DNA from: an uncultured Candidatus Saccharibacteria bacterium
GTDB taxonomy: Bacteria > Patescibacteriota > Saccharimonadia > Saccharimonadales > Saccharimonadaceae
Assembly: GCA_947304395.1 (NCBI GenBank)
Contig: CAMZBA010000004.1
Coordinates: forward strand, 29,530-93,529
DNA length: 64,000 bases
Direction: 5' to 3'
Shown: piece by piece, positions 4,076 through 55,561 of the stretch
Position numbering within the stretch: position 1 is the stretch's first letter
How the letters are laid out: every line of letters starts with the position of its first letter
Notes under the pieces: model-generated
What the model saw: the letters and a program-made list of their open reading frames with translations, nothing else
Databases searched by the model: none
Told to the model about the DNA's origin: nothing
Translations under genes and position numbers: made by a program

Positions 4076-4089
<14 letters not shown>

Positions 4090-4957
4090 TTTCGAGCCTT
4101 TCTATACGTGCTTCAATTGGCGGATGAGTCGAGAAAAAACGGCTCAATACAGATTTTTTCAGTGGATTAGAAATATACATCGCCTCGGTCGCTACGTTTT
4201 GCTGGCGCATTGGGCGATTGTGTGCATCGAGTTTGCGCAAAGCGTTTATCATATCGTCCGCATTGCCGATTAACGAGGCCGAAGATGCATCCGCAAGGTA
4301 TTCACGCTGGCGCGAGACGGCCAATTGAACAACCGTTGCGACCAGTGGCGACAAAACCAGAACGCATAATACAAACAACATGCCGATTGGCGAATTATCC
4401 TCCTCTTCGCGGTCGCTATACCAAAGAACACGAAGCCCAAAATCCGACAGCAATCCAACCAGACAGGTCAAGCCAAAAGTTATCGTACTAATGCGAATAT
4501 CGTAATTGCGCACATGCGACATTTCGTGCCCAAGTACCGCGCGAAGCTCTTTATCGTCCATTATGTCGAGCAATCCGCGCGTAACGGCAATCGCCGAATG
4601 CTGTGGATCACGGCCAGTCGCAAAAGCGTTTGGCGCCGAGTCGTTAATGATATATAGGCGCGGCGTTGGGATTTTTGCGTTTTCGGCCAAAGATCCGACG
4701 ATGCGGAAATATCGCGATCCTTCGTCTGGATTAGCCTCCTTTGCGCCGGCACTAACTAGAGCGATTTTGTCGGAAAAGAAATATTGAAATATTGCATAGC
4801 CCGCCGATAGAATTGCGCACCATATTAGGATAGCTGGATTATTTGAAAGCCATGCAAATAGCCAGCCAATTAAGCTAATTATTGCTACAAAAACAAACAT
4901 AATTAATATTGTATTAATTTTGTTTTGTGCAATTTGCTTTTGCAAAGCTACTGCCAT
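4076..4957 (-). CDS. htpX: HtpX-like M48 membrane zinc metalloprotease
   Basis: 293 residues. Two N-terminal hydrophobic segments (about residues 16-36 and 42-60) are followed by the zinc site HEMSH (His144 and His148) and, further on, REYLADASS with the probable third ligand Glu. Two more hydrophobic segments lie between. This is the standard HtpX layout: a cytoplasm-facing protease that degrades misfolded membrane proteins. The -10 sequence TATAAT (4969-4964) is six bases before the ATG, so the message is probably leaderless. Confidence 0.93.
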
Positions 4958-4974
4958 GTCTTAATTATAGCATT

Positions 4975-5355
4975 TTAGAGTTTTTTGAGGTAGTTGCAGC
5001 CGTAAGCATAGTTTGAACAGTATAGAAAATCGCCATGTTTCCCGCGTTTTCGAATCAATTCGCCTGTATGGCATTTCGGACAAAGCCTGCCGTAAGCCTC
5101 CTTGATGTGGTTGGAAATTTCAAATATAAATGGCGATGGATTTTTGCGATTAGCAATTAAATATGTGGCCTCGCGCGCCCGCGTAATTGCTACATAAAAC
5201 AGTCGTCGTTCTTCCGCAAAAGGAAAATTGTCTTCCTTAGACAGCATAGCATCTAGAATCGGGTCAGACTCACGCGTCGCCGGCATGCCCATCATGTCTG
5301 AATTCATATTTAAGACAATAACAATGTCGCGCGTGATGCCTTTCGATTTGTGCAT
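4975..5355 (-). CDS. SF1 helicase fragment 3 (motifs V and VI plus zinc ribbon)
   Basis: Last segment: motif V begins MHKSKG, motif VI is YVAITRARE, and the tail is a four-cysteine zinc ribbon (CPKC ... CSNYAYGC) like those at the end of topoisomerase I and some HelD-type helicases. Sixteen coding-like codons (CDKTNPARTLKLEFCS) lie between the preceding TGA and this ATG in the same frame, so this is a continuation rather than an independent gene. Confidence 0.65.
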   Translation of the reverse strand: MHKSKGITRDIVIVLNMNSDMMGMPATRESDPILDAMLSKEDNFPFAEERRLFYVAITRAREATYLIANRKNPSPFIFEISNHIKEAYGRLCPKCHTGELIRKRGKHGDFLYCSNYAYGCNYLKKL

Positions 5356-5403
5356 TGAGCAAAATTCGAGCTTTAAAGTACGTGCCGGGTTCGTTTTGTC
5401 GCA

Positions 5404-6237
5404 TCATATCACGTCATAAATGTCTGATCCGCCGTCGCGTTTTTTAATTCTGAATGCATCTGACTCAATTCGTTTTATGTCGTGATTATAGCGTGATATG
5501 AGCTGCAGACTTTTTTGTTTTACTTTACCGTAACCGTATTTTGTGATTAATTCTTGCAGAATGATGACTAGCGACTCCGCATCCTGTCCAAAAGTCTTTC
5601 CGTTAGGCTTATTTAATATGATGCTTATCGTAGTTTTAGCGCTCTGAGTATTTTTGACTAATTTATGCGACTGCATGGGGTTGCGCTGTATGAAATCGCA
5701 ACTAATTTTAATCGTCGGCTCGCCAAAGCGATGCGTTGATTCGATAAAGCTACGGCGAGTTCTTAGTTCGAAAGTTTTCTCAAAATTATTTATTAGCGAT
5801 AAGTCGCTGCCCGTAAACCGGTAGATCGACTGCCAATCATCGCCAACGGCAAACAGCTTGCAGCCTGGATTTTTATGCAAAATAGAATGCACCAACATGC
5901 AACGATTGCGCGAAAGATCCTGAACTTCATCGAGCAATATATATTTATACCCTACTGAGCAATCTGCAATATTATCGATGGATTCTTTTGCAGCGTTTAT
6001 CATGTCTGCGAAATCATAGCACCGTTCGTGTTGCAGCATTTTTTCGTAGGCATAATAAACGCGTTGATATATCGATAAAAATAAATCATTTCGACGTTGG
6101 GAGTATTTTTCATCACTTTTTAAACGCTGTTTAATATCCGTAAAATCATAAAGGCCATTTTTGTGTAATGATAAAATGTTTTGTAGCATACCATAAAAAC
6201 CATCTAGTTCTTTGGCATAATATTGATTTTGGGACAT
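5404..6237 (-). CDS. SF1 helicase fragment 2 (motifs II to IV)
   Basis: Middle segment in the same frame as fragments 1 and 3. It carries the Walker B motif YILLDEVQDLS, motif III FAVGDDWQSIYRFTGSD and motif IV HRFGEP. It is opened by an internal ATG without a Shine-Dalgarno sequence, and about 31 coding-like codons precede that ATG after the first TGA. It stops at TGA 5406-5404 after DIYDVI. Not expected to be functional alone, because it lacks the Walker A loop. Confidence 0.65.
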   Translation of the reverse strand: MSQNQYYAKELDGFYGMLQNILSLHKNGLYDFTDIKQRLKSDEKYSQRRNDLFLSIYQRVYYAYEKMLQHERCYDFADMINAAKESIDNIADCSVGYKYILLDEVQDLSRNRCMLVHSILHKNPGCKLFAVGDDWQSIYRFTGSDLSLINNFEKTFELRTRRSFIESTHRFGEPTIKISCDFIQRNPMQSHKLVKNTQSAKTTISIILNKPNGKTFGQDAESLVIILQELITKYGYGKVKQKSLQLISRYNHDIKRIESDAFRIKKRDGGSDIYDVI

Positions 6238-6330
6238 TTCTTGATAAACTTCACAATCATCGCGACGATGAACATTTATCCGAAAACGTTTTAGCTCTTC
6301 GGTGAGATATTGAAAAATCGATAAGTCATT

Positions 6331-7176
6331 TCAGCGCCAGGATGGCAAAATTATATAACTTGTATGGTTGCGCATATGCAAATTCTGACGCCACTTTATA
6401 TCGCGCATATAGCTAGGACCATAAATGCTATGCCCTTTTTGGTTAATAATGAAATAATCCAAATAAATATTCCGCGGAGTTTTTATCGTGAAGCTAGGCT
6501 GATATTTTTCGTCACAGAATGGATATTGGCACTCGTGCACATGCGGCAAGTTGTTAACGTATAGCCAATTAGCTAATAATTGCTCATCCTTTGTACGGAT
6601 AAAGCTACCCGACTGCTCAAAAAGCGCATGTCGCAAGTAGATTCGATTAAAATTAATACGCCCAGAATGAGTTTGTACCCCTGCGGGACTGCTTGGTGCG
6701 GAATAGAAAAACAGAATAAAGTCCACGACCGCACGCGCAAAGTCCGCATCGTGTTTAATTAGAAACTCTACGTAACTACGAATAAAAGTCGCAATGCCCG
6801 TGTCGCTAAGAAGCTTTTTGAGCCCCAAGCCAGAATAGTCCGCATCTTTCAAAATGCTATTACCAAGACTATGAAAAGTATGAATATTAATCCCTTTTAT
6901 ATCGCAACGCTCTTTTAGCTCAGATACTGTTTTTTGCGTGAAAGAGATGACCAATATCCGTTCGGCCGGAATATCTAACTCGCGGTTCAAGTAATCTATC
7001 TTTGCCAATAGACTCATAGTCTTGCCGCTGCCAGCCGATGCTAATACAAGTTGAGCATCCTCACACGCTACGACTGCTTCAATCTGCTGACGATCTAGTA
7101 CGCAGCCACTATTCGACATTTTTTGCCTGCAAGCATACCGCAAATATAGCCAATTGTGACAACGCCTTAAAAGCAT
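6331..7176 (-). CDS. SF1 helicase fragment 1 (Walker A part)
   Basis: First open segment of the interrupted helicase, 281 codons as opened at ATG 7176. The start is more likely 7119, directly before the conserved LDRQQIEAV segment. It contains motif I (ASAGSGKT) and motif Ia (ISFTQKTVSELKERC), then a region like the insertion of HelD-type helicases (PRNIYLDYFIINQKG). It ends at an in-frame TGA after PSWR, and the next codons continue the same protein (NDLSIFQYLTEEL). Confidence 0.7.
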   Translation of the reverse strand: MLLRRCHNWLYLRYACRQKMSNSGCVLDRQQIEAVVACEDAQLVLASAGSGKTMSLLAKIDYLNRELDIPAERILVISFTQKTVSELKERCDIKGINIHTFHSLGNSILKDADYSGLGLKKLLSDTGIATFIRSYVEFLIKHDADFARAVVDFILFFYSAPSSPAGVQTHSGRINFNRIYLRHALFEQSGSFIRTKDEQLLANWLYVNNLPHVHECQYPFCDEKYQPSFTIKTPRNIYLDYFIINQKGHSIYGPSYMRDIKWRQNLHMRNHTSYIILPSWR

Positions 7177-7444
7177 GACTAATCATACGCAAAAACGTCG
7201 CCATCGACTGGGGCGAGGAGAAAGGAGCTGCGCGCAAAGTATGGACATGTCCGAAAAAGAAATATAGATTTTACCAAATAATAAACGACGCAACTTCCAA
7301 ATGAGCTGATAATACTTCGCACGCATAACTTAAATATAAAAAATCTTCAAAAATAAAAAAGCATCAGCATAATAGAAGTATTATAATGAAGGCAACCAGA
7401 ATATCGCGGCTCACACAAAAGAGATGGAAAGGAGGTGAAAAGCT
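7120..7444. other. Intergenic region between the helicase and the 7445 gene
   Basis: About 325 bases, A/T-rich in its right half. No RNA gene or strong hairpin was recognised. A TATAAT-like box lies at about 7381-7386, followed by a 20-codon ORF (ATGAAGGCAACC...) whose TGA overlaps the GTG start of the next gene. That ORF begins inside the box, so one of the two readings must be wrong. Confidence 0.4.
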
Positions 7445-35494: not shown

Positions 35495-37369
35495 TTATTC
35501 AACTACGGCTTTAATACGGCGAACGCCTGCAGAGCTAGACTCTTCTTTCTTAATCTTGAAATGGCCGATAACACCGGTATGTTCGACGTGAGGACCGCCA
35601 CAGACCTCGCGAGAAACTGGATTGTCGAAATCGCCAATCGTATAAACCGTTAGCTTCTCTGGATATTTATCCCAGAACTGGCCATGCGCCTTCAGAGTGT
35701 CGCGCGCATAGGCTTTGTCATATTCGTCATGAACGACTTTAAGGTCCGCCTTAATCCACTCATTGACTTGATCCTCAACTTTTTGCTTTTCTTCTGGAGT
35801 GAGCTTGCGGTCAAAATTAAAGTCGAAGCGAAGACGTTCAGCGGTAATATTGCTGCCCTGCTGACCAATATTTGGGTCAATTAGTTGTTGTAGGGCCGCG
35901 AGTAGCAAATGCGTAGCCGTATGATATTTCGTAGTCTGCTCGCCATGGTCTTCAAGGCCACCCTTAAACATGCCCTTACTAGCGGTCTTTGAGCGTTGGC
36001 GTTGCTCTTCAAGTGCCGCATCAAATTCTTTGCGCCAATCTTTACTGAGCTCAATATCCTGACGATAGGCCTCCTCTACGGATAGTTCCATTGGAAAACC
36101 ATAAGTATCCTGCAACATGAATAGTTCTTTGCCCGTAAGACCGTCTTTCTTGAAACGAGCGAGCTCTTTCATACCGCGACGGAGCGTCTTGCGGAAGGCT
36201 TGCTCTTCATGGCTGAGAACTTCTAGAACCTGCTCGCGCGTAGTAAGGATGCTATCCGGAAGATCTTTATAGTTCTCGGCTATCATTGGCAAGACTTCGG
36301 CCAAGAAATCCTGTTCGATACCGAGGTTGAGGGCTTTGAGTACTGCACGGCGAATGATACGTCGCAAAGCGTAGCCCTGTTGCTTGTTTGACGGTTTTAG
36401 GCCTTGAGCGGTCAGTAAGTAGGCACCGCGAAGATGGTCGGCAATTACGCGCATATCGGCAGTGTTAGATTCGTACTTTTTGCCAGATAAGTCAACGAGC
36501 TTATCGATAATTGGCTTAAGTAACGAGATTTGAAAGACGTCGTAGGAATTTAGAGAGGCCGCCGTAATACGTTCGAGGCCAGCACCAAAGTCGACATTCT
36601 TATCCTTGAGCTCCTCGAAGCTACCGTCCTCTAGGCGGCGGTATTGCATGAAGACCTGGTTGCCAATTTCCATAAAACGAGCGCCGTCGGAAGCCGGATG
36701 GGCTTTTCCGTACTTGGCTACGTCTTGATGCTCTTCGCCAAAGTCATAAAATACTTCCGAGTCTGGACCGCACGGGTCGCCAATTGGCGTAGTCTCAATG
36801 CCGCCACCGCGAGACCACCAGTTTTCTTTGTCGTTATAGAAGAAGATACGCTCATTACCTTTGATGCCGCGCTTGTCGCCATTTTCGGCCGTGTCAATTT
36901 CGGCAATATCCGCTTTGATGCCAACCTCGGCAAAAACCTTTTGCCAAATAGCAGCCGCCTCATCGTCGCGCGGAATGCCGTATTCTTTGTTACCAATAAA
37001 ACAAGTGACGTAAATTTTTTGCGGATCTAGACCGATTTCCTTAGTTAGAAAGGTAAAGAAGTTGCGAATTTGCTCTTCTTTGAAGTAGTCACCAAGCGAC
37101 CAGTTGCCAAGCATCTCGAAGACGGTAGTATGACGCGGATCGCCAACGTCATCAATATCCTGGAGACGCAAGCATGGCTGAGAGTCAGTCAAGCGCTTGC
37201 CCTCTTTGTGCGGTTTGCCGAGAAGATATGGCAATAATGGCTGCATGCCAGAACCGGTAAATAATGTCGTAGGATCATTCTCTAACACGAGCGGTGCGGG
37301 CTGAATTTGTACGTGCCCCTTAGATTTCATAAAATCGAGATATTTTTGGCGTACTTCACTTGCATTCAT
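35495..37369 (-). CDS. alaS: Alanyl-tRNA synthetase, short form
   Basis: 624 residues from ATG 37369 (MNASEVRQKYLDFMK), against about 875 in E. coli. Present: class II motif 1 region, motif 2 (VFEMLGNWSLGDYFK), motif 3 (GAGLERITA) and the editing domain with HTATHLLLAAL and CGGPHVEHTG. The protein stops right after SAGVRRIKAVVE, so the oligomerisation and C-Ala (DHHA1) domains are missing. Catalysis and editing look intact. TATAAT (37381-37376) is six bases before the ATG: leaderless. Confidence 0.95.
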   Translation of the reverse strand: MNASEVRQKYLDFMKSKGHVQIQPAPLVLENDPTTLFTGSGMQPLLPYLLGKPHKEGKRLTDSQPCLRLQDIDDVGDPRHTTVFEMLGNWSLGDYFKEEQIRNFFTFLTKEIGLDPQKIYVTCFIGNKEYGIPRDDEAAAIWQKVFAEVGIKADIAEIDTAENGDKRGIKGNERIFFYNDKENWWSRGGGIETTPIGDPCGPDSEVFYDFGEEHQDVAKYGKAHPASDGARFMEIGNQVFMQYRRLEDGSFEELKDKNVDFGAGLERITAASLNSYDVFQISLLKPIIDKLVDLSGKKYESNTADMRVIADHLRGAYLLTAQGLKPSNKQQGYALRRIIRRAVLKALNLGIEQDFLAEVLPMIAENYKDLPDSILTTREQVLEVLSHEEQAFRKTLRRGMKELARFKKDGLTGKELFMLQDTYGFPMELSVEEAYRQDIELSKDWRKEFDAALEEQRQRSKTASKGMFKGGLEDHGEQTTKYHTATHLLLAALQQLIDPNIGQQGSNITAERLRFDFNFDRKLTPEEKQKVEDQVNEWIKADLKVVHDEYDKAYARDTLKAHGQFWDKYPEKLTVYTIGDFDNPVSREVCGGPHVEHTGVIGHFKIKKEESSSAGVRRIKAVVE

Positions 37370-37416
37370 TTTGTTATTATACAATAATCCGACAGACAGG
37401 AGAAACATGAGCGTTA

Positions 37417-54490: not shown

Positions 54491-55561
54491 TTAATTGTCC
54501 AAAAATGCTTCAATAAAATTATCGATTTTGCCATCAAGAACGGCGTCGGCGTCGTTTTCCTCGTACTTTGTACGCGTATCTTTAACAAGCTTATACGGAT
54601 GAAGGACATAATTTCGAATTTGCTGCCCCCAGCCCGCCGATTCGCCAGCGCGAAGCTTATCGACGGATTCGGCATTTTGGTCTTGCATCATTTGCTGCAA
54701 CTTGCCGCGAAGAATTTCCATGGCTTTTTCCTTGTTCTGCAACTGACTACGTTCATTCTGAATTGCGACCACGGTATTGGTTGGAATATGCGTAATGCGC
54801 ACTGCGGAATTAGTTGTATTAACCGATTGACCACCATGTCCACCCGAGTGATAAACATCGATGCGCAGATCTTTGGGGTCGATTTGCACCTCAGAATCAT
54901 CTCTTATAACTGGTAGCACTTCCACGAGCGCAAATGACGTCTGGCGAAGATGATCGGCATTGAATGGACTAAGGCGGACTAGCCGATGTGTGCCATGTTC
55001 AGATTTTAGCCTGCCATACATATTCGGGCCAGATAGCTCCATTACGCAAGTCTTAATCCCAGCTTCCTCCCCAGCAACGCGGTCGAGAATCTGGACTTTA
55101 ATATTATTGCGCTCCGCCCAACGAAGATACATACGCTCAAGCATGCTAGACCAGTCCATTGCTTCAGTGCCACCAGCGCCAGCCGTAATGCGCAAGATTG
55201 CGTCATTATGATCATACTTGCCAGTGAAGCGTAGTGCTTGACGCAGTTTGGCGAGGTTTTCTTCCATAGCGTCGAGCTGCCCCGCAAACTCTTCCGCCAG
55301 AGAATCGTCGCCGAGCGACATCAAATCTGAAATATCTTTAATTTGCGTCTTTAACAGTTGCCATGGATCCAGCTCGTCGTGGAGATTAGATAACTGGGTA
55401 GTTTTTTCACGAGCATTATCTGGGTTGTTCCATATTTCTGGAACCGCCACCTCCTCCTCTATTTTTTGCATATCGGAGAGCTTCTGGTCGATGTTGAGTT
55501 TTTGCCAAGTTGCTTCAAACTCTGCCGTAAGAGCGTCTAGTCGTTTCTGAAGGTCAAACAT
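54491..55561 (-). CDS. prfB: Peptide chain release factor 2
   Basis: 356 residues. It recognises UGA and UAA: the anticodon-like tripeptide SPF appears in VRLSPFNADHLRQTSFALVEV, and the catalytic GGQ in YHSGGHGGQSVNTTNSAVRITH. One uninterrupted frame; the autoregulatory +1 frameshift known in many prfB genes is absent. The presence of RF2 shows that UGA is a stop codon in this organism. TATAAT seven bases before the ATG. Confidence 0.97.
   Translation of the reverse strand: MFDLQKRLDALTAEFEATWQKLNIDQKLSDMQKIEEEVAVPEIWNNPDNAREKTTQLSNLHDELDPWQLLKTQIKDISDLMSLGDDSLAEEFAGQLDAMEENLAKLRQALRFTGKYDHNDAILRITAGAGGTEAMDWSSMLERMYLRWAERNNIKVQILDRVAGEEAGIKTCVMELSGPNMYGRLKSEHGTHRLVRLSPFNADHLRQTSFALVEVLPVIRDDSEVQIDPKDLRIDVYHSGGHGGQSVNTTNSAVRITHIPTNTVVAIQNERSQLQNKEKAMEILRGKLQQMMQDQNAESVDKLRAGESAGWGQQIRNYVLHPYKLVKDTRTKYEENDADAVLDGKIDNFIEAFLDN

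Follow-up and report, generated by a model that had tools for sequence, protein, structure and literature searches.

The helicase gene and its in-frame UGA codons

The window analysed here is a stretch of 64,000 nucleotides from an uncultured Candidatus Saccharibacteria bacterium (GenBank assembly GCA_947304395.1, contig CAMZBA010000004.1, positions 29,530 to 93,529 of the forward strand), whose genome is referred to below as the host genome. On the minus strand lies a gene for a UvrD/helicase IV-like superfamily 1 (SF1) helicase (4975..7326), 783 codons long and ending in TAA, with a C-terminal Top1-type zinc ribbon and three in-frame TGA codons on the same strand, namely codon 48 (7183..7185), codon 332 (6331..6333) and codon 641 (5404..5406). 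The UGA codons of this gene, like those of several competence genes elsewhere in the genome, are likely read as tryptophan (Trp). The original prediction, made from the letters of the window, had described a minus-strand frame at 4975-7119 of about 714 codons, interrupted only by TGA at 6333-6331 and 5406-5404; TGA was indeed the only kind of interruption found, but the gene is longer, reaching 7326, and the TGA at codon 48 had been overlooked. The ATG at 7326 is most likely the gene start, because the orthologues share a conserved N-terminus that extends upstream of the earlier ATG and because a promoter box lies 32 nt before it. The SF1 identity and the zinc-ribbon tail were borne out by a domain search of the read-through protein, in which UvrD_N (PF00580, E = 1.3e-38) and UvrD_C (PF13361, E = 9.9e-11) were found together with the zinc ribbon. 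Judged by its domains, the product is an SF1 helicase of the UvrD type. Its nearest family is DNA helicase IV, to which it is related without being a member, the score against the model NF008276 being 268.6 bits with a cut-off of 543.

The read-through protein was used as the query in a search of 61 genomes, comprising the host, 36 others of the same genus and 24 from other families of the same order. Matches with at least 43% identity were obtained in 25 same-genus genomes, 21 of them full-length, those of G004, G009, G011 and G012 being left out as pieces (in G011 a stretch of N interrupts the gene). With corrected starts, TGA lies inside 18 of the 21 full-length helicases, with a total of 45 TGA against 134 TGG codons, and in these frames, which share 48-95% identity, TGA is the sole internal stop, TAA and TAG being found in none. 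A second helicase of G007, listed with two TGA, was not counted, since the best coding segment there is free of TGA and stops short of where the match ends. Alignment of homologues at the TGA sites, the check proposed with the original prediction, gave TGA or Trp at codons 332 and 641 with the exception of one Phe: 10 TGA, 10 Trp and 1 Phe at codon 332 (alignment column 297; n = 21), and 6 TGA and 15 Trp at codon 641 (alignment column 608; n = 21). At codon 48, TGA is present in all four closest genomes, host included, and in motif III, GDD[W]QSIY, two genomes have TGA and the remaining 19 have Trp. The ratio of nonsynonymous to synonymous substitution rates (dN/dS) of the helicase was 0.080-0.104 in six close pairs; for neighbouring genes, compared between the host and G036, it ranged from 0.009 to 0.205. 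The M48/HtpX-like protease gene that adjoins the helicase gene (4076..4957, minus strand) has no internal TGA.

The original prediction had offered two explanations, a very recent pseudogene or a gene read through at UGA, and had called it notable that the same stop occurred twice with nothing else damaged. The repetition does exceed chance: TGA, placed variously along the gene, is present in 18 of 21 full-length orthologues, none of which has an internal TAA or TAG. Decay, according to which the helicase and the competence (com) genes would be young pseudogenes that happen to hold TGA, can draw on the fact that TGA is one transition away from TGG at every Trp column. Against it stand the 21 open full-length frames at 48-95% identity, the dN/dS of 0.08-0.10 between close relatives, the same TGA pattern in four more families throughout the genus and an excess of TGA at Trp columns, both described below. 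The genus-wide pattern already refutes decay unless the alignments are wrong, and its probability is accordingly minimal; from the alignments, the helicase is not a pseudogene, and the pattern in open frames under purifying selection supports a gene read through at UGA. An equally slight probability is given to the pair formed by assembly or sequencing errors and a genome-wide UGA=Trp code, the latter being taken up with the stop codons below. Errors would be conceivable in that the host and most of its relatives are incomplete or draft assemblies, but TGA recurs at the same codons across separate assemblies, three of them named records.

Further UGA-bearing genes and the residue at UGA

Five other gene families were found to carry in-frame TGA. 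A scan of 400 kb of the host genome led to comEC (PF03772, E = 4.6e-35, with the match spanning TGA; TIGR00360 above cut-off, TIGR00361 below cut-off), which has two in-frame TGA in the host. In the genus, comEC contains TGA in 20 of 37 genomes, with one to five each (five in G006 and G024), compared with none of 18 out-group genomes, and a single column holds 17 Trp, 4 TGA and 2 Phe (n = 23). Other stops were listed in comEC as well, namely TAG in G034 and G035 and TAA in G008, G032 and G050; the rows of G034 and G035, in which TAG stands just before the last residues, were dropped from the counts of box and TGA. A lamin-tail (LTD) surface protein gene, likewise brought up by scanning and with dN/dS of 0.10-0.26, has TGA in 27 of 35 same-genus and none of 9 out-group genomes. 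In six of these nine out-group genomes the LTD and comEC matches are no more than 2 kb apart (G038, contig C70; G041, C1; G042, C20; G045, C31; G050, C5; G051, C57), which points to a role of LTD in DNA uptake. The dprA gene, looked for because of the pattern (TIGR00732, above cut-off), has its TGA at codon 27, within L[W]YRG, where the column contains 11 TGA, 13 Trp and 6 Tyr (n = 30); TGA occurs in this gene in 17 of 34 same-genus and none of 19 out-group genomes. A putative comFC gene, examined in the host genome, has one TGA and matched TIGR00201 with E = 1.3e-16 and 60.1 bits, below the cut-off of 233.55. The gene comM (TIGR00368, 517.8 bits, above cut-off) was found through the promoter box; its product, YifB/ComM, acts in transformation. 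TGA was present in comM in 14 of 30 same-genus and none of 19 out-group genomes, one out-group row having TAA, and one column holds 13 TGA and 11 Trp (n = 29), with dN/dS values of 0.06-0.09. The aligned rows, for which loci were fetched, numbered 21-23 for comEC, 27 for LTD, 22-29 for comM and 30 for dprA. In two genomes of the genus, G034 and G035, the helicase, comEC, LTD, comM and dprA are all free of TGA. As a separate observation, ComM of G036 is 57% identical to that of the host, compared with 93-97% for helicase, comEC, LTD and dprA, which looks like gene exchange, or contamination (G036 is listed with 9%).

ComEC, DprA and ComFC are counted among the core components of the com system that Saccharibacteria conserve, and in a cultured Saccharibacterium transformation was obtained in the wild type only and not in a comEC deletion (PMC10633639). 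We infer that the helicase and LTD also act in DNA uptake, the helicase being tied to it solely by the shared box and the use of UGA.

Across helicase, comEC, LTD, comM and dprA, 103 of 159 TGA codons stand in columns with Trp in another row, compared with 1296 of 58160 other residues (2.2%); one ambiguous codon of G006 comM was not counted as TGA. On a tree of 25 genomes, 20 columns gave at least 46 switches between TGA and TGG; the tree was built from the same genes, so that gene exchange would inflate the number. TGA occupies the first Trp position of the gene in more cases than expected in the helicase (10/18 versus 5.3), comEC (14/20 versus 7.1) and LTD (17/24 versus 9.7), in a permutation test that ignores relatedness and uses starts chosen with preference for the box; such an excess would suit an early lock. 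On this evidence, UGA in these genes likely stands for Trp. Two candidate signals around the codon were considered. CTA at 24 of 48 Leu codons following TGA suggested that UGA-CTA might be a special context for readthrough, an idea that was dropped because Leu after TGG is also rich in CTA in the host (78/223). A at position +4 is commoner after TGA (47/140) than after TGG (28/296) in the same genes, but equally common after sense NGA. The Trp-Leu codon pair bias is a host property unrelated to UGA, CTA making up 78 of 223 Leu codons after Trp compared with about 18% of all Leu codons in 605 gene models.

A scan of the host genome for further TGA genes, not exhaustive, covered 762 coding segments with 2033 TGG codons and recovered four of the seven TGA genes known to lie in the stretches covered, missing comFC and two small proteins. 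Thirty-eight segments contained TGA, of which 4 were the verified genes and 3 corresponded to a pilin-like gene, a sortase-like gene and a frame at C3:74575; of the rest, 9 were assessed by eye over their whole length and 22 by the position of their TGA, at most 50 codons from a segment end, and no other TGA gene was verified among the 762 segments. The pilin-like gene (DUF7601; L126:3639-4712, plus strand, host contig C5) and the adjoining class B sortase-like gene (L126:4989-5696, plus strand) each have one in-frame TGA and no promoter box, and weakly similar copies elsewhere in the host genome are without TGA; the two genes may represent decay or further UGA genes. Two similar small proteins of 111 and about 134 residues (L121:6281-6616 and C2:119927-120337, both minus strand) have the box and a TGA at codon 43 or 41. 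The one of them that was searched had no Pfam or NCBIfam match; their start, helix-turn-helix-like by eye, suggests that they may be regulators of the UGA gene set. A further boxed frame of the host (C3:74545-75111, plus strand; L235) has TGA at codon 54 ahead of a MazG-like domain, and may be one fused gene with UGA read through, or two separate genes.

The shared promoter box

The promoter box of the helicase gene, GCTGATGCTT (consensus RCTNATGCTT; 7359..7368, minus strand), is common to comEC, comM and LTD and has a variant in dprA (GTTCATGCTT in the host), mostly 32-35 nt before the ATG. A -10-like TATATT (7333..7338, minus strand) was recognised by eye 6 nt before the helicase ATG. In the boxed host genes that were read by eye, no Shine-Dalgarno sequence was seen, and a TATAAT-like word often lies near the ATG. 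The box was found 28-38 nt before the start in 18 of 21 helicase, 18 of 21 comEC, 25 of 27 LTD and 17 of 22 comM genes, and a looser form of the word before 21 of 30 dprA genes, counts that lean upwards since start codons with a box at a suitable distance were preferred. In a control with 762 host gene models, 7 genes had the box at distance 32-34, compared with a mean of 0.2 per position elsewhere. From its position and the absence of a Shine-Dalgarno sequence in the genes read, we infer that the box is a regulated promoter making leaderless mRNAs. The same box, with TATAAT, also stands at 37403-37412 in the window, before a candidate alaS-like gene named by eye (35495..37369, minus strand) that has no in-frame TGA. 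Membership of tRNA-Trp in the boxed set was considered and dropped, as, among the tRNA-Trp genes listed, four have box-like words upstream and the others have none.

A cis element or dedicated factor that directs Trp to every UGA of a message, in the manner of a selenocysteine insertion sequence (SECIS), would account for the acceptance of UGA at many places in a gene and for verified cases confined to one small gene set. However, the box, the sole shared element found (no search for shared RNA structure was made), is absent from comFC, and it lies before the predicted leaderless start and therefore would not be in the mRNA. This explanation is thus given a low probability.

Probable decoding of UGA and its significance

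Outside this gene set, UGA appears to keep its ordinary meaning. The release factor 2 (RF2) gene prfB (54491..55561, minus strand) is intact, with GGQ and SPF motifs and a family score above cut-off, and the stop codons of 600 other host gene models (841 kb) comprise 371 TAA, 142 TAG and 87 TGA, with TGA also ending 8 of the 58 open reading frames of the window. The exclusion of a genome-wide recoding, already argued in the original prediction, is confirmed by these results. The UGA-bearing orthologues of four families behave differently, since 75 of 76 end in TAA or TAG and the exception ends in TGATAG (binomial p = 9e-5 against 87/600, relatedness ignored). Such ends would be expected of a gene set evolving with UGA as sense whenever it is translated.

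The search for a decoder was centred on tRNAs. The 179 tRNA calls over all loci (overlapping loci counted again) included none with a UCA, UUA or CUA anticodon and no suppressor tRNA encoded with the gene set, and no UCA tRNA was found among the 39 tRNA places of the host, a draft assembly that is 96% complete. Regarding tRNA-Sec, the calls included no UCA anticodon, and no search with a separate tRNA-Sec model was made. All the tRNA-Trp called in the genus have a normal anticodon stem of 5 bp, identical apart from a single pair in G002 and G013; positions 27 and 43 are paired, by eye, as C27-G43, so that the mechanism based on a tRNA-Trp(CCA) with a 4-bp stem does not apply. Because no UCA, UUA or CUA tRNA was called and the stem is a normal one, ordinary tRNA-Trp(CCA) would be the simplest decoder. 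The host has two tRNA-Trp(CCA) genes that differ by one T-loop base (L039 and L040); similar open reading frames (MYDKF...) lie close to both. A second tRNA-Trp as the cause was rejected, as no other same-genus genome listed shows two matches above 95%.

Considering these results, it is reasonably probable that at least six genes (helicase, comEC, comM, dprA, comFC and LTD) carry in-frame UGA with the likely meaning Trp, presumably read in a competence state in which tRNA-Trp(CCA) outcompetes RF2. In this state, the box would drive the transcription of leaderless mRNAs of the UGA gene set, RF2 activity would be low, and ordinary tRNA-Trp(CCA) would win over RF2 at UGA, with the insertion of Trp and the production of full-length protein. 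A low-RF2 state is proposed because RF2 must work for other genes. The UGA codons might then serve as a lock, stray transcripts outside competence giving fragments and the whole set being translated in season. A more far-reaching version, somewhat short of probable and offered tentatively, is that two codes are used in turn: competence would switch UGA from stop to Trp, and comEC, comFC, dprA, comM, LTD and the helicase would be written for it, TGG being replaceable by TGA and gene ends avoiding TGA.

Several observations weigh against this interpretation. With respect to the residue, 56 of the 159 TGA codons stand in columns where no other row has Trp, and for LTD only 10 of 34 fall in Trp columns, many LTD TGA codons lying in the variable signal peptide. 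At helicase codon 48, Trp is not conserved (5 TGA, 1 Trp and 12 other residues; n = 18), and two of the three TGA sites in the G015 helicase are mostly other residues in relatives. The dN/dS of comEC (0.19-0.32) is higher than that of the helicase. TAA or TAG likewise closes all 15 UGA-free orthologues, so that the bias in end codons does not follow UGA at the level of single genes; the stem of tRNA-Trp is likewise the same in the TGA-free G034 and G035. In the host, topA, the alaS-like gene and a KAP-type gene have the box without TGA, as do radA-like genes in G030 and G036, and comFC has TGA without the box, with GGAGG before a possible GTG start, so that UGA does not follow from the box. 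The pilin-like and sortase-like genes, with one TGA each, imply that the set may not be one of competence only. Finally, no trigger, RF2 control or altered tRNA was found in this analysis.

The main rival explanation dispenses with both switch and lock, and holds that a constant, modest reading of UGA as Trp is tolerated by rarely needed genes for which little product is enough. It fits the frequent interchange of TGG and TGA (46 switches), the comM column near half and half (13 versus 11), the single TGA in each of the pilin-like and sortase-like genes and the lack of a box before comFC, as well as the finding that the com genes made no significant contribution to fitness or growth in the cultured relative (PMC10633639). 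Nevertheless, up to five TGA per comEC (G006 and G024) would multiply the losses, the non-exhaustive scan described above verified no further TGA gene, UGA-bearing genes seldom end in TGA, and the first Trp codon is TGA above chance, with the reservations already given. Such tolerance is considered unlikely, although it deserves more weight than any of the other alternatives.

The competence-linked reading of UGA as Trp was also compared with the known departures from the standard meaning of UGA. Normal tRNA-Trp reads UGA leakily in E. coli, in competition with RF2, and ordinary tRNA-Trp(CCA) competing with RF2 would serve here in the same way; classical readthrough, whether leaky or programmed, however, gives a C-terminal extension at one stop, whereas a single gene here can contain up to five internal UGA, some of them at motif residues that are conserved. 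Selenocysteine provides a gene-specific sense for UGA alongside ordinary UGA stops, with insertion directed by SECIS elements, but in the present genes Trp rather than Cys occupies the conserved columns and no UCA tRNA was found. A genome-wide UGA=Trp code is reported for the Patescibacteriota family JAKLIH01, which lacks RF2 and UGA stops and has a UCA tRNA in two of four genomes (PMC13092985). Code 4 (Mycoplasma-type, and in JAKLIH01, a family of the same phylum) thus shares with the present case UGA at Trp positions, but here prfB and TGA ends are kept, no UCA tRNA was found and UGA=Trp was verified in few genes. In Absconditabacteria and Gracilibacteria, which are related candidate-phyla bacteria, UGA is also sense and is read as Gly (PMC10746230), while in the present genus it would be Trp, with prfB present and the change not genome-wide. 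The closest parallel in working is that of recoded phages (Lak and others) of standard-code hosts, whose late genes have in-frame stops that are thought to prevent early production, and which may supply suppressor tRNAs, synthetases or release factors themselves (PMC10746230). Both cases would involve a stage-specific gene set with in-frame stops in a standard-code cell, the verified genes here forming a small set within a scan that was not exhaustive; unlike in the phages, the set here is bacterial and chromosomal, prfB is present and no UCA tRNA was found. Each known kind tested fails a defining feature, and the phage parallel is one of possible working only. No report of UGA in competence genes was found among the papers listed from the open-licence literature, judged by titles and the beginnings of abstracts, preprints and most subscription papers being outside the scope.

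For annotation, the consequence would be that ComEC, DprA, ComM and the helicases described here are fragmented by gene finders using code 11 in many species of the genus, and species with genes so cut may seem to have lost competence. If the interpretation is true, a living cell would have a set of chromosomal genes written in a code unlike that of the rest of the genome, with RF2 kept and no dedicated suppressor tRNA found. It would offer a natural system for testing the double meaning of a codon in one cell, and the change from stop to sense, and it would suggest a translational lock on gene transfer in one group of epibiotic bacteria.

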